Positions 17,644-42,463 of a stretch of 64,000 nucleotides of DNA are shown here, one piece after another; the stretch's first letter is position 1; each line of letters begins with the position of its first letter. The DNA is taken from assembly GCF_000372845.1 (NCBI RefSeq), contig NZ_KB889963.1, positions 3,120,304 to 3,184,303 on the forward strand, in the 5' to 3' direction. The stretch comes from Methylocystis rosea SV97. Its GTDB lineage: Bacteria > Pseudomonadota > Alphaproteobacteria > Rhizobiales > Beijerinckiaceae. A program made the translations under genes and the position numbers. Under the pieces are notes generated by a model. It was not told the origin of the DNA and did not search any database. It saw only the letters and a program-made list of their open reading frames with translations.

Positions 17644-18882
17644 GTGACGAAGCATAAGAGCTTAGAGGATTACGCGGCAAGACGATTCCGTTTTGCTGGC
17701 AACGCCTTGCTGGAGTTCAGCGATCCGTTCTTCGCCCAGATCGACAGGCTGCGAGCCGAATTCGAGGCGCAGGGCAAGCACTTCGTCAGCTTCGCCAATT
17801 ACGATTATCTCGGGCTCGCGAATCACCCGCGGATCCGCGAGGAAGCAAAGCGCGAGATCGACGGCCTCGGCATCGGCGCGCTGGCCTCGCGACTTGTCGG
17901 CGGCGAACGCACCACGCACAAGCCGTTCGAGGCGGAGATCGCCGAATTCCTTGGCATGGAAAGCGCGCTGACGCTCGTCTCCGGCTATCTCTCCAATGTC
18001 ACGACGATCGCCTGGCTGATGAGCGGCAAGCGCGACGCGATCTTCATCGACGAACTCGCGCATAACAGCATCGTCGCGGGCGCCGACGGCGCGCCGGCGC
18101 AGGTCGTCAAATTCCGCCACAACGATTTGGATCATCTCGACCATCTGCTCGCGCGCCACCGCGAGGAATACCGCAACGTCCTGATCGTGGTCGAGGGCGT
18201 CTACAGCATGGACGGCGACACCGCCGACCTGCCGCGGCTCCTCGCCATCAAGGACAAATACAAGGTCTGGCTTCTTGTCGACGAGGCGCATTCGCTCGGC
18301 GTGCTCGGCGCGACGGGCCGCGGCCTCGCCGAACATCAGGGCGTCGATCCGGCGCGCATCGACCTCATCGTCGGCACCATGTCGAAGACGCTCGCGTCCT
18401 GCGGCGGCTATGTCTGCGGCAAGAAGCAGGTCATCGACTGGTTTCGCTATACGCTGCCGGGCTTCGTCTACAGCGTCGGCCTGTCGCCCGTCATTCTCGC
18501 CGCCGCGCGCACTGCGCTGCGGCTGATGCAGGAAGAGACCTGGCGCATCGCCAAACTCGCGGACAACGCCGAGCTCTTCCGGACGGTCGCGCATGAGGCA
18601 GGATTCTCGACCGGGCCGGCGATCGGTCGCGGGGTCGTGCCGATCCTCTTCTCGAGCGACGTCGAGACGATGTGGGCGTCCCAGCATCTGCTGGAGAACG
18701 GCTATTACGTGCCGCCGGTCGTGCGCATCGGCGTGCCAAAGGACGGGCCGCGGCTGCGCTTCTTTTTCTCGGCGAACCACAGCGAAGCGGAAATCCGCGG
18801 CGTCATCCAGATGCTGCGCGACATGCCGCCGGTGACGGAAGAAGCGCATCAGATCGTCGCCGCGGCGATGGCGGGCGGCTAG
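17644..18882 (+). CDS. spt: serine palmitoyltransferase-like alpha-oxoamine synthase
   Basis: PLP-dependent enzyme of the alpha-oxoamine synthase family, 412 residues, starting at a GTG. Visible features are NYDYLGLANHP near residue 56, GIGALASRLVGGERTTH, the histidine of DELAHNSI, DEAHSLGVLG with the cofactor aspartate and histidine, and GTMSKTLASCGGY with the Schiff-base lysine at about 248. Serine palmitoyltransferases typically have GT(F/M)SK(S/T)LAS-GG here, whereas 2-amino-3-ketobutyrate ligase and 5-aminolevulinate synthase have different residues. With a ceramide-synthase-like gene, a dihydroceramide-desaturase-like gene and an FA2H-like gene downstream, the first step of sphingoid base synthesis (serine plus acyl-CoA or acyl-ACP to 3-ketosphinganine) is the best reading. 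An AONS or KBL activity cannot be excluded. Confidence 0.85.
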   Translation: MTKHKSLEDYAARRFRFAGNALLEFSDPFFAQIDRLRAEFEAQGKHFVSFANYDYLGLANHPRIREEAKREIDGLGIGALASRLVGGERTTHKPFEAEIAEFLGMESALTLVSGYLSNVTTIAWLMSGKRDAIFIDELAHNSIVAGADGAPAQVVKFRHNDLDHLDHLLARHREEYRNVLIVVEGVYSMDGDTADLPRLLAIKDKYKVWLLVDEAHSLGVLGATGRGLAEHQGVDPARIDLIVGTMSKTLASCGGYVCGKKQVIDWFRYTLPGFVYSVGLSPVILAAARTALRLMQEETWRIAKLADNAELFRTVAHEAGFSTGPAIGRGVVPILFSSDVETMWASQHLLENGYYVPPVVRIGVPKDGPRLRFFFSANHSEAEIRGVIQMLRDMPPVTEEAHQIVAAAMAGG

Positions 18883-18943
18883 CGCTGACTCCCGCGTCAC
18901 TTTGACGCTTTCGATTAAGGCCAGCGGCCGCTAGGACTTGCAT

Positions 18944-20158
18944 ATGGCGCGGATCGAGATTCTTCCGGTCGACGGCCCTTTGCGCTTTGCGACCTTCTGC
19001 AGGCTGCCACGGCTGCTCTATGCCGGCGCCGAAGGCTTCGCGCCGCCGCTCGACATCGAGCGCTGGAGCGTCTTCGCGCATAAGCTCAACCCGCATTACA
19101 AGCTCGTCGAGGAGCAGAAATTTCTCGCCCGCCGTGATGGCCAATGGGTCGGTCGCGTCATGGCGCAGATCTATAAGCCCGGCGTCACGCCGGTCGGCGC
19201 CTCCAATGCGCAATTCGGCGCGCTCGACGCAATCGACGACGTCGAGGTCGTGCGCGCGCTGACCCAGGCCGCCGAGGACTGGCTGCGCGCCAAGGGCGCG
19301 GAGCGGATCAACGGACCGTTCTCGCCGTCGGTCAACAAGGAGTGCGGACTTCTTGTCGATGGCTTCGACGCGACGCCGATGTTCTTCATGCCCTGGCATC
19401 CGCCCTATCTCTCGCGCCATCTCGAGGCGCTGGGCTATGAGAAGGCGCAAGACCTCCTGTCCTACCGCTTCGACATTTCGAGCGACGAGAGCGACAAGCC
19501 CGCGCGCATTTCAACGCGGCGCGAATGGCGCGATCGCTTGAAACTCAGGCCGTTGAACATGAAGGCGTTGAAGCAGGGCGAAACCGCGCTGATGACCGAG
19601 CTGTTCAACGACGGCTGGAGCGGAAATTGGGGTTTCGTGCCCTTCACCAAGGAAGAATTCGACTCCGACGCCGACGCGCTGCAATATCTCGTGCCGGAGG
19701 ATTTCGGCATCGTCGTCGAGCTTGACGGCGTTCCGCAGTCCTTTGCGATCGCGCTTCCCAATCTCAATGAGATTCTCGCCGATCTCAACGGACGCCTGTT
19801 CCCCTTCGGCTGGGCGCGCGCGTTTAAGCGATTCCGCTCGCATCAGTTCAAATCGGCGCGGCTGTTGCTGCTTGGCACGCGAAAGACGCTGCAAAGAAGC
19901 GCGACCGGCGGCGCGATCTTCCTGTCGCTGGTCGAAGAGATGCGGCGGCGCCACGCAAAAATCCGCGTTCCGCATCTCGAAGCGGGATGGGTGTTGGAAA
20001 GCAACGCCGACATGCGCCGGCCGATCGAAATGTTCGGCGGCAAGGTCGACAAGATTCATCGCATCTATGAAAAGCGCCTCACGGTCGGCGGCGGCGACGA
20101 GGCCATGCGTATGCGTGACGGCGTCACGGCAACTCAGCTACAGGATGCAACGTCATGA
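18944..20158 (+). CDS. GNAT-fold acyltransferase, candidate bacterial ceramide synthase
   Basis: A 404-residue soluble protein with GNAT-like features. An N-terminal segment on residues about 1-120 holds FLARRDGQWVGRVMAQI and FGALDAIDDVEVVRAL; the core follows with AERINGPFSPSVNKECGLLVDGF and FMPWHPPYLSRHLEALGYEKAQDLLSY; a second acyltransferase-like half includes IFLSLVEEMRRRHAKIRVPHLEAGWVLESNADMRRPIEMFGG. From memory, the bacterial ceramide synthase of Caulobacter (bCerS) belongs to this type of protein, unrelated to eukaryotic CerS. The start is placed at the ATG at 18944 (a TTG at 18938 is also open). It ends in an ATGA overlap with the desaturase gene. N-acylation of a sphingoid base is inferred from context. 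Confidence 0.75.
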   Translation: MARIEILPVDGPLRFATFCRLPRLLYAGAEGFAPPLDIERWSVFAHKLNPHYKLVEEQKFLARRDGQWVGRVMAQIYKPGVTPVGASNAQFGALDAIDDVEVVRALTQAAEDWLRAKGAERINGPFSPSVNKECGLLVDGFDATPMFFMPWHPPYLSRHLEALGYEKAQDLLSYRFDISSDESDKPARISTRREWRDRLKLRPLNMKALKQGETALMTELFNDGWSGNWGFVPFTKEEFDSDADALQYLVPEDFGIVVELDGVPQSFAIALPNLNEILADLNGRLFPFGWARAFKRFRSHQFKSARLLLLGTRKTLQRSATGGAIFLSLVEEMRRRHAKIRVPHLEAGWVLESNADMRRPIEMFGGKVDKIHRIYEKRLTVGGGDEAMRMRDGVTATQLQDATS

Positions 20159-21150
20159 ATGGCATATCCGTCACCGCCAATGGCGCCGACCGCTCGCATG
20201 TCGAGCGGCGCAAGCTGATCCTCGAAAAATATCCGCAAGTGCGCGAACTCTTCGGCAAGGACCCGGTGACCTTCAAGATCACGGCGGCGATTTTCGTCGG
20301 GCAGTTCGTCATCGCCGCGATCTTGGGTTCGCTCGGCCTTTCCTACTGGTGGCTGTCGCTCTTGATGGCGATCTGCGTCGGAGCCTTCGCCAATCACGCC
20401 AATTTCGTAATCATCCACGACGCGATTCACAATTGCGTCTTCGAGAGCCCGCTCGCCAACAAGTGGACGGCGATCCTCGCCGATCTTCCCAACGCCTTTC
20501 CGACGGCGATGGGCTTTCGCTGCTACCACATCAAACATCATTCGCATCTGTCGGCCTATGACTATGACGCCGACATTCCGAGTCGCTGGGAGGTCGAATG
20601 GGTCGGCAACAGCGGCTGGCGCAAGGCCGCTTGGATCTTCTTCTTCCCGGTCATTCAGCTTGCGCGCCTGTCGCGCCTGAAAGGCACGGTGCCGATCTGG
20701 GGAACCTGGACCTACGTCAATATCGCCGTCATCGCCGTCTTCGATCTTTTCGTGCTCTGGGCCTTTGGGCCGAACGCGCTGCTCTATCTTTTCTTTTCCT
20801 TCTGGTTTTCGGTTGGAGGCATGCATCCGCTGAGCGCGCGCTGGCTGCAGGAGCATTTCGCCTTCGGCCCCGACCAGGGGACGTTCGACTATTACGGGCC
20901 GCTCAACACGCTCGCGCTCAACATCGGCTATCACAACGAACACCACGACTTTCACGAGATCCCGTGGAACCGTTTGCCTCAGCTGAAGGCGATGGCGCCG
21001 GAGTTCTATGATGATCTGCGATGCCATCGCTCCTGGACCGCACTGCTCGTCACCTTCATCTTCGATCCGACCTATTCGCTCGGCACGCGGTCGGAAAATG
21101 TCACGCAGGCGGCGGAGCGCGTAGCGCCTGTCGTCGCGCCGGCGGAGTAA
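20155..21150 (+). CDS. sphingolipid delta-4 desaturase (DEGS-like) fatty acid desaturase
   Basis: Membrane di-iron desaturase of 331 residues with three histidine boxes: HDAIH at 88-92, HIKHH at 125-129 and HNEHH at 260-264. It resembles animal dihydroceramide delta-4 desaturase well beyond the boxes. The N-terminal ERRKLILEKYPQVRELFGKDP matches the DEGS-specific N-terminal domain, and GMHPLSARWLQEHF and YYGPLNTLALNIGYHNEHHDF match conserved DEGS blocks. Four or so hydrophobic segments are present. The start overlaps the acyltransferase stop (ATGA) and the hydroxylase starts 3 bp after its stop. It would introduce the 4,5 double bond of a ceramide-like lipid; an acyl-chain desaturase role is the alternative. 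Confidence 0.85.
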   Translation: MNGISVTANGADRSHVERRKLILEKYPQVRELFGKDPVTFKITAAIFVGQFVIAAILGSLGLSYWWLSLLMAICVGAFANHANFVIIHDAIHNCVFESPLANKWTAILADLPNAFPTAMGFRCYHIKHHSHLSAYDYDADIPSRWEVEWVGNSGWRKAAWIFFFPVIQLARLSRLKGTVPIWGTWTYVNIAVIAVFDLFVLWAFGPNALLYLFFSFWFSVGGMHPLSARWLQEHFAFGPDQGTFDYYGPLNTLALNIGYHNEHHDFHEIPWNRLPQLKAMAPEFYDDLRCHRSWTALLVTFIFDPTYSLGTRSENVTQAAERVAPVVAPAE

Positions 21151-21153
21151 GTC

Positions 21154-21801
21154 ATGACGCAGGACGTAAGAACGGAAGCGCTCGACGCTTCGCCCCGCCT
21201 CTTCGAGAGCGATCTTCTCGACAAGCTGTCGCGCGTGCATCATTTGACGCCGGTGATCGTCTATTGCCCGATCATTCTCGGCCTGGTGTTCTATTCGCTC
21301 ACCTTCAACAGTCTGACGCTCGTCTTATTGGGTCTTGTCGTCGGCTATCTGGGCTGGACGCTGACCGAATATTTCGGCCACCGCTATCTCTTTCACACCG
21401 TGTTCGCGCTGCCGTTCGGGCTTGGACCGCGCTTCCAATTCCTCATCCACGGCGTGCATCACATCTATCCCAACGACCCGCTGCGGCTCGTCATGCCGCC
21501 GCTGCTCTCGGCGCCGATCATGCTGATCGCGCTCGTCTGCGCCCGCCTGATTTTTGGCGCGACATTCGCGTGGCCAGCGCTCGCCGGCTTCATCACGGGT
21601 TATGTGATCTATGATTGCGTGCACTACTGGACGCATCACGGGCAGCCGAAGTCCGAATTCGCCCGCATGGTGAAGCGCCTGCACATGCTGCATCATTTCC
21701 GCGACGCCGAGAAAGGCTTCGGCGTTCACGCGATCTGGTGGGACTATGTGTTCGGCACGGCCTATCGCAAGGACGAGACGCCCGGCACGCGCGCGGTGTG
21801 A
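21154..21801 (+). CDS. fatty acid 2-hydroxylase-like (sterol desaturase superfamily) protein
   Basis: A 215-residue membrane di-iron oxygenase. The full histidine pattern of FA2H/Scs7 is present: EYFGHRYLFH near 70-79, HGVHHIYPNDPLRLVMPP near 95-112, YDCVHYWTHHG near 152-162, and LHMLHHFRDAEKGFGVHAIWWDYVFGT near 173-199. The loop with PxDxxRLVxPP and the GFGV-WD-VFGT end are specific to fatty acid 2-hydroxylases rather than sterol desaturases. It lacks the N-terminal cytochrome b5 domain of the yeast and animal enzymes. As the last gene of the sphingolipid-like operon it probably hydroxylates the N-acyl chain or the sphingoid base. Confidence 0.85.
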   Translation: MTQDVRTEALDASPRLFESDLLDKLSRVHHLTPVIVYCPIILGLVFYSLTFNSLTLVLLGLVVGYLGWTLTEYFGHRYLFHTVFALPFGLGPRFQFLIHGVHHIYPNDPLRLVMPPLLSAPIMLIALVCARLIFGATFAWPALAGFITGYVIYDCVHYWTHHGQPKSEFARMVKRLHMLHHFRDAEKGFGVHAIWWDYVFGTAYRKDETPGTRAV

Positions 21802-21810
21802 GGGCGCGCA

Positions 21811-21919
21811 CTACCTCCCCCTTGCGGGGAGGTCGATCGCCGAAGGCGATCGGGTGGGGGTAATAGAATTCACCCCACCCGGCTTGCTTCGCAAGCCACC
21901 CTCCCCGTCGAGGGGAGGG
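21811..21919. repeat. intergenic palindromic repeat downstream of the lipid operon
   Basis: A 109-bp block built of nested inverted repeats: CCTCCCC/GGGGAGG arms at the left, GATCGCC/GGCGATC and GGCTTGC/GCAAGCC hairpins in the middle, GGGTGGGG/CCCCACCC arms across the centre, and CCCTCCCC/GGGGAGGG at the right. It lies between the stops of two convergent genes and could act as a bidirectional terminator. It resembles the block at 42301-42463 in composition and arrangement. Confidence 0.7.
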
Positions 21920-42300: not shown

Positions 42301-42463
42301 CCCTCCCCTTGACGGGGAGGGTCGAACCGCGACGCGGTTCGGGGTGGGGTGATCTCGTAGAGGGACTGTGAGATCGCCCCCCACCCGGTCGCTTCGCAGC
42401 CAAGTTTACGCATCCTGCATAAACTTGCCTGCGATGGCGACCGACCTCCCCACAAGGGGGAGG
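42301..42463. repeat. intergenic palindromic repeat between ccmE and ccmF
   Basis: A block of nested inverted repeats: CCCTCCCC/GGGGAGGG arms at the left, GAACCGC/GCGGTTC hairpin, GGGGTGGGG/CCCCCACCC arms across the centre, and CCTCCCC/GGGGGAGG at the right. It lies inside the ccmI-ccmE-ccmF-ccmH operon, 37 bp upstream of the ccmF start. Its arrangement matches the element at 21811-21919. Confidence 0.7.

Follow-up and report, generated by a model that had tools for sequence, protein, structure and literature searches.

In Caulobacter crescentus, ceramide is made by Spt, AcpR, AasR, bCerS and CerR (roles as given in PMC11324152). A second bacterial starting enzyme, SgaB of Pseudomonas fluorescens, is a proven serine palmitoyltransferase (SPT) that joins L-serine to acyl-coenzyme A (acyl-CoA); alanine and glycine are very poor substrates. 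SgaC, a short-chain dehydrogenase/reductase (SDR), is proposed to reduce its product (PMC12134224). Here we analyse a stretch of 64,000 nucleotides from Methylocystis rosea SV97 (G000:C1:3120304-3184303; ‘the window’ denotes this whole stretch), part of a 3.9-Mb genome in two contigs from a genus of alphaproteobacterial methanotrophs. The window contains a four-gene operon that probably forms the core of a bacterial ceramide pathway of non-canonical type, found in Methylocystis and in further Beijerinckiaceae. Its predicted product is an unsaturated, 2-hydroxylated and perhaps glycosylated ceramide, whose double bond and additional hydroxyl would resemble those in animal, plant and fungal lipids. 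A preliminary description of the same DNA had proposed an operon for an unsaturated, hydroxylated ceramide. That remains the best reading, because a bCerS-family, a DEGS-like and an SCS7/FA2H-like protein are encoded in one operon and recur together in other phyla; the proposal needs amending in that the first enzyme is not a canonical SPT and that neither a ketone reductase nor an acyl carrier is among the four genes.

A candidate ceramide operon

Four complete genes lie head to tail at positions 17644-21801 of the window:

17644..18882, + strand: AOS, an alpha-oxoamine synthase (pyridoxal phosphate enzyme) of a polyketide-synthase-linked clade; 412 amino acids, GTG start; placed by Pfam PF00155, tree and motifs.
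18944..20158, + strand: GNAT-like protein, putative bCerS-family N-acyltransferase with a predicted tandem GNAT fold; 404 amino acids from ATG; placed by homology, AlphaFold2 model and Foldseek.
20155..21150, + strand: DES, DEGS-like membrane desaturase with a Lipid_DES domain; 331 amino acids; PF08557 and PF00487 above cut-off, three histidine boxes.
21154..21801, + strand: FAH, SCS7/FA2H-like member of the FA_hydroxylase family without a cytochrome b5 domain; 215 amino acids; PF04116, match to yeast SCS7 (4zr1), RLVMPP motif.

The open reading frame (ORF) coordinates confirm the arrangement first described: AOS and the GNAT-like gene are 61 bp apart, the latter overlaps DES by 4 bp (20155-20158) and a gap of 3 bp (21151-21153) separates DES from FAH. 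The GNAT-like gene has an alternative TTG start at 18938.

All four genes are contiguous in each of the 14 congener loci fetched (L087-L100); the genus has 36 other genomes, of which these loci represent 14. Co-occurrence in related genomes had been suggested as a check. Of the 37 genomes in the genus, 36 have the Lipid_DES domain, which is also present in 1 of 24 genomes from the other families of the order (G055) and in 2 of 385 genomes of the class sample, including our own. Given this contiguity and the contrast between genus and class, the four-gene set is more than a chance association. A scan of named genomes with an alignment of DES yielded at least 553 confirmed relatives, the best 80 of which were kept as loci, so that counts on them are not a census. 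Among these, 27 loci are of the Beijerinckiaceae type (L101-L127), with records from Methylocapsa, Methylocella, Beijerinckia and Methylovirgula; AOS, GNAT-like gene and DES occur together in 26, and the remaining one (L125) begins at DES at a contig end.

Desaturase, hydroxylase and acyltransferase

DES matches FA_desaturase (E = 1.5e-23) and the sphingolipid Delta4-desaturase domain Lipid_DES (PF08557; E = 3.7e-9, 36.3 bits versus a cut-off of 23), and both domains also score above cut-off in all eight DES relatives tested. Its three histidine boxes (H88-H92, H125-HH129 and H260-HH264) are invariant in the nine aligned sequences, in which GYHNEHHDF..IPW..LP and APEFYD are also conserved; we take the box spacing and these motifs to be DEGS-like. 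The domains and histidine boxes uphold the earlier naming of a DEGS-like desaturase, with Delta4 as the predicted position. Structure searches added little: a profile of DES against the PDB gave no match at E = 0.1, and its fold model was weak (predicted local distance difference test (pLDDT) 71.9), with uninformative Foldseek results (best E = 1.9e-4, to chains of chloroplast motor complexes that may or may not be desaturases; AlkB at 8.8e-3).

In FAH the only domain found is FA_hydroxylase (PF04116; E = 4.4e-16). The protein matches yeast SCS7 (4zr1) over 187 residues (E = 1.9e-24) with the eight-histidine metal site aligned, and its stretch DPLRLVMPP aligns to DKYRLVMPP of SCS7, in which RLVMPP is presumably a mark of FA2H/SCS7 proteins. 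Yeast and animal members of this group have a cytochrome b5 domain at the N terminus; in FAH, at 215 amino acids, Pfam finds none. Domain, SCS7 match and motif agree with the FA2H-like hydroxylase of the preliminary description, and the 2-hydroxyl is the position predicted for its action.

No Pfam or NCBIfam model matched the GNAT-like protein at E = 0.1. Its AlphaFold2 model has a mean pLDDT of 86.5 and matches the tandem-GNAT structures 2wpw and 7q3a (Foldseek E about 1e-11), in line with the GNAT-fold acyltransferase first named. Over its whole length (364 residues) it shares 38% identity with a protein of locus L074 that occupies the place of bCerS and is encoded together with two LptF/LptG proteins, a curated SPT (627 versus a cut-off of 500) and an acyl carrier protein (ACP). 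These surroundings are those of Caulobacter bCerS, for which the gene order comes from PMC11324152. We therefore regard the GNAT-like protein as a homologue of bCerS, with N-acylation of a sphingoid base as its proposed activity. Homologues occur in 51 of the 385 class genomes, including our own.

A hydroxylase of another subfamily lies directly beside the bCerS-like gene in 11 of the 20 class loci L061-L080, and blastp adds two more (L075, L076); it may be a further sphingolipid-tailoring enzyme. We rejected the idea that FAH is of the same kind: identity is 22-30% or the match is limited to a short stretch, and RLVMPP is present in none of the 11 aligned.

Linkage in other phyla

The other 53 of the 80 kept loci are from outside the Beijerinckiaceae type, and several of them stop at contig ends. 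In 16, DES, FAH, an AOS or SPT, and bCerS lie within 8 kb of DES; 14 of these belong to Verrucomicrobia/Spartobacteria/Chthoniobacterales, one is labelled Acidobacteria and one is from Saprospiraceae. The remaining 37 comprise 5 with DES, FAH and AOS, 4 with DES and FAH, 1 with DES and AOS, 3 in which DES is accompanied by an AOS of either the window or the polyketide kind, and 24 with DES alone. The Saprospiraceae locus (L161) reads DES-FAH-PAP2-SPT-bCerS-CerR-like epimerase; its SPT passes a curated cut-off (681 versus 640) and its epimerase is 27% identical to CerR. In G401, the immediate neighbours of DES are bCerS, FAH and two LptF/LptG genes; canonical SPT, AcpR and CerR lie together at another locus. 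The Verrucomicrobial AOS is of a third type and was rejected as a canonical SPT. DES is thus linked to bCerS beside at least three types of AOS, and this is the strongest argument for ceramides or their bases as its substrates.

G401 also encodes a second Lipid_DES desaturase (L082; 41%), whose 20-kb locus lacks the other three genes. In the Verrucomicrobial clusters, CDP-alcohol phosphotransferase genes lie beside bCerS (L128:13184-14125 and L136:15333-16037), which suggests a phospho head group there.

An unusual first enzyme

AOS matches Aminotran_1_2 (PF00155) with E = 9.7e-48. The preliminary description took it for an SPT on the basis of an ‘SPT-type’ GTMSKTLAS; this identification does not hold. 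The protein scores below all three curated SPT models (NF047599, 293 bits against a cut-off of 500; NF047600, 277 against 640; NF047603, 211 against 670), whereas four of four AOSs from canonical loci pass NF047599 with 586-644 bits. The motif, too, departs from the canonical form: all eight Alphaproteobacterial SPTs aligned read GTFSK, and GT[LM]SK followed by CGG or SGG is the mark of a clade that unites the window AOS with AOSs linked to polyketide synthases. The hypothesis of a canonical SPT was rejected for these missed cut-offs and for the separate clade. Identity as Kbl, 5-aminolevulinate synthase (ALAS) or BioF was likewise rejected: the scores are below cut-off (Kbl, 278 versus 460 and 226 versus 493 bits; ALAS, 236 versus 339; BioF, 342 versus 426), and the tree sets AOS apart from Kbl and BioF of Escherichia coli and from the ALASs of its own genome, with the BioF rows flagged as long branches. 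The grouping with Kbl or ALAS that had been named as an outcome that would refute the preliminary proposal is not what the tree gives. BioF yields the highest score of all models, and it also gives 300-400 bits to ALAS, Kbl and SPT proteins of this and other genomes. The Methylocystis genome encodes two ALASs above cut-off (627 and 621 versus 339) and a separate BioF-like protein (L008), which at 340 versus 426 is also below cut-off.

In a maximum-likelihood tree of 40 rows (the L113 row carries X at one internal stop and L172 is a partial AOS), a 20-row clade with support of 100/99 contains the window-type AOSs, the polyketide-linked AOSs and 5 further AOSs; SPTs, Kbl, ALAS and BioF fall outside. 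Within it, the window-type AOSs are sister to the polyketide-linked side (own branch 93/93), and the partners of the window AOS are those of Beijerinckiaceae, Afipia (L175), Acidisoma (L195) and G394 (L064). On the polyketide side are AOSs of Sinorhizobium, Shinella, Caballeronia, Methylobacterium, Planktothrix, Streptomyces and G219, encoded behind or fused to large genes for polyketide synthases or proteins containing a beta-ketoacyl synthase (KS); the DES-linked AOSs of L172 and L177 also fall there. By score and tree position, the window AOS is outside every curated SPT family and belongs with AOSs encoded after polyketide synthases. Its own neighbours are CcmA, the GNAT-DES-FAH genes and ligA; none of them is a type I polyketide synthase. 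SgaB would belong to the same clade, judging from gene context (compare the Pseudomonas plasmid locus) and not from the SgaB sequence.

Several relatives are of interest in their own right. The AOS is fused to a polyketide synthase in Planktothrix (L200:1-7116) and to a KS-containing protein on a Streptomyces plasmid (L201:2299-7122). An Antarctic Acidisoma plasmid (L195:5882-9927) carries, in a row, a GNAT gene (annotated as hypothetical), an SDR, an AOS (51%) and a gene of the sterol-desaturase family, with glycosyltransferase and capsule genes near, as a compact relative of the system. G219 has both a canonical SPT-bCerS region (L075) and a cluster of KS-containing megasynthase, AOS, GNAT and SDR (L086), so that it possibly holds two ceramide routes in one cell.

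A probable complementary operon

The four-gene operon has genes for neither a ketone reductase nor an acyl carrier. Canonical CerR was not found in the genome, in which the best match reaches 51 bits and 24% identity, compared with 176-220 bits in five canonical-type genomes besides that of the query; a CerR elsewhere in the genome was rejected on this ground. AcpR had no match in the genome at E = 0.01.

A second operon, on the minus strand of the same contig (C1, about 3089079-3094893), lies 43 kb before AOS and outside the window. It encodes an ACP, a KS, a small ORF, a MaoC-type dehydratase, an SDR and a GT2 glycosyltransferase. Pfam supports the ACP (27.0 versus 20.8), KS, dehydratase, SDR and GT2. 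It matches nothing in the small ORF, which lies between KS and dehydratase and is a ‘dehydratase partner’ by position only. A convergent copy of this operon adjoins the AOS operon in at least 10 of the 27 Beijerinckiaceae-type loci, a lower bound because the loci are cut. Each of the nine Methylocystis genomes searched has a match to the KS with 70-77% identity, compared with no more than 38% in five others; for the SDR the contrast is weaker (50-70% in those nine, up to 48% in the others). Gene calls in L226-L229 were made with a codon-usage script. Contig 2 of the genome carries another KS of this family (70%; L227:9340-10563), between murA-like and galU-like genes named by eye. A search with P0003 against plasmids gave no match.

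SDRs related to that of the second operon occur beside AOS and/or GNAT genes in L064, L086, L175, L177 and L195. When the L086 SDR is used as the query, the second-operon SDR is the best match in the Methylocystis genome (156 bits; the next has 66); in G002, another copy matches better. The second-operon SDR is the leading, although not proven, candidate for the ketone reductase. GT2 scores 28.3 bits on PF13506 (cut-off 21.7), the model of GT21 or ceramide glucosyltransferase, but PF13632 fits better (86.5), and at E = 1e-5 neither L108 nor L122 shows PF13506. The second operon is likely to be the complement of the four-gene operon and may supply an acyl chain, ketone reduction and a sugar.

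Proposed pathway and alternatives

Gene structure, families, conservation and linkage are read from the DNA; each reaction below, and the position at which it would act, is predicted from them. AOS would condense an amino acid, most likely L-serine, with acyl-ACP or acyl-CoA to give a 3-ketosphingoid base, the ketone of which would be reduced, most likely by the second-operon SDR. The ACP, KS and MaoC-type dehydratase could make or lengthen the acyl chain. The bCerS-family protein would add the second acyl chain, before or after ketone reduction. DES, by family DEGS-like, would introduce the 4,5 double bond, and the SCS7-like FAH would place a 2-hydroxyl on the N-acyl chain; GT2 would perhaps glycosylate the ceramide.

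Taken further, these predictions would make a third bacterial ceramide route, a view that we put forward tentatively and hold to be somewhat doubtful as a whole. A type II module (ACP, KS, MaoC-type dehydratase and SDR) would replace both the polyketide synthase of the AOS clade and the AcpR that accompanies canonical Spt, and the SDR would replace CerR. With its DEGS-type double bond, its SCS7-type hydroxyl and a sugar, the finished lipid of the methanotroph membrane would be a cerebroside similar to those of fungi or plants, and its sphingoid base might be very long.

Several observations weigh against a ceramide product. AOS misses every curated SPT cut-off, and the Verrucomicrobial AOS does so too (about 320 versus 500 in the three tested). 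FAH was found in 15 of the 27 Beijerinckiaceae-type loci and is missing in 12. The 24 loci with DES alone contain no other gene of the set in the DNA at hand, and G055 has a DES, yet no AOS, GNAT or FAH in its 20-kb locus; DES therefore need not act on this lipid. SDRs are abundant, a 45% match to the L086 SDR exists also in G343, which is without the acyltransferase, and the second-operon SDR could equally be the ketoreductase of a chain-building module. GT2 resembles cellulose synthase more closely than it does any ceramide glycosyltransferase. In the open-access literature, some of it available in part, sphingolipids were not found reported for Methylocystis or methanotrophs.

Among the alternatives, the one that survives best, albeit as an unlikely one, keeps the pathway and changes the decorations: the DEGS-like enzyme would be a hydroxylase (C4-hydroxylation of the phytosphingosine type, or acyl hydroxylation) and FAH would act at another position, giving a hydroxylated product without Delta4 unsaturation. 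The PF08557 match in DES is short and N-terminal (residues 14-37), which would suit such a change, although the histidine-box spacing and the two conserved motifs are, as we take it, DEGS-like, and a second acyl hydroxylase would be redundant beside the SCS7-like one in the operon. Desaturase-fold hydroxylation has a precedent in the DesA-family protein CC_0202 of Caulobacter, reported to hydroxylate the amide-linked acyl chain (PMC11324152).

Harder to sustain is the idea that the AOS product is a lipid that anchors or carries a surface polysaccharide, with the acyltransferase and oxygenases tailoring the anchor; the polyketide-linked relatives of AOS near capsule genes may have such a role. 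AOS relatives do have capsule genes and polyketide synthases as neighbours in Sinorhizobium, Shinella, Caballeronia and Pseudomonas plasmids, those in Acidisoma are flanked by capsule and glycosyltransferase genes, and the GT2 resembles cellulose synthase; however, no capsule or polysaccharide-export gene adjoins the operon within the window (read by eye), and a bCerS-family acyltransferase with DEGS- and SCS7-like enzymes is a ceramide-tailoring set. We judge this improbable. No paper on rkpA, rkpG or rkpH was found in the open-access literature.

Use of alanine or glycine by AOS, which would make the product a 1-deoxyceramide or another N-acyl amino ketone or alcohol, is very improbable: AOS is in no curated SPT family and scores highest with BioF, an alanine-using enzyme, but this score lends little support because ALAS, Kbl and SPT proteins also reach 300-400 bits, and SgaB, whose gene cluster is built alike, has a strong preference for L-serine over alanine and glycine (PMC12134224).

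Genome setting

The operon is flanked 5′ by ccmA, on the opposite strand, and 3′ by ligA (both named by eye). A promoter scan found none, terminator-like sites numbered 7 compared with 3.9 expected from shuffles, and no inverted repeats were found 3′ of the operon. Just past it, a GC-rich 15-mer (21818-21832) recurs once with one mismatch (42445-42459) and is possibly an interspersed repeat; 2 of 100 shuffles also give two matches.

Significance and comparison with known systems

If the unsaturated, 2-hydroxylated ceramide is real, culturable methanotrophs make Delta4-unsaturated, 2-hydroxylated ceramides, and gene content suggests the same of soil Verrucomicrobia and some Saprospiraceae; such sphingosine-like bases and 2-hydroxyceramides, when met in soils and wetlands, could therefore no longer serve as markers of eukaryotes. 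In bacteria, the bCerS acyltransferase would have been combined with first enzymes of unrelated types, the question would arise of whether DEGS and FA2H were transferred from bacteria to eukaryotes or the reverse, and the membrane chemistry of an important methane sink would become directly testable by genetics and lipidomics. Each of bCerS, DEGS, SCS7 and the polyketide-type SPT is known; a search of the open-access literature, which cannot prove the combination unpublished, found no description of them together in a single bacterial operon, nor of their association with different types of AOS in other phyla. Searches of that literature for Verrucomicrobia with SPT and for DEGS/FA2H in bacteria led nowhere.

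With Caulobacter crescentus, Methylocystis shares a bCerS-family acyltransferase, as the resemblance to the canonical-type L074 protein indicates; it differs in an AOS of another clade, in the absence from its genome of any CerR or AcpR orthologue that we could find, and in having DEGS-like and SCS7-like genes in the operon. With the SgaAB/SgaC sphinganine pathway of Pseudomonas fluorescens it shares the polyketide-linked kind of AOS (the window AOS by tree, SgaB by gene context) and an SDR as the proposed ketone reductase. Unlike that system, the Methylocystis AOS has no adjoining type I polyketide synthase; discrete ACP, KS and dehydratase genes lie elsewhere, and an acyltransferase and DEGS-like and SCS7-like enzymes are added. 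The Lipid_DES domain and histidine boxes, and the SCS7 match with RLVMPP, recall eukaryotic DEGS1/DES and FA2H/SCS7, whereas the Methylocystis genes form a bacterial operon, the hydroxylase has no N-terminal cytochrome b5 and the ceramide synthase is bacterial, not of the TLC type. The Verrucomicrobial and Saprospiraceae DES-FAH-AOS-bCerS clusters (L128-L166) differ in AOS type (a curated SPT only in L161), in gene order and in their CDP-alcohol phosphotransferase or PAP2 genes, but they hold the same functional set.

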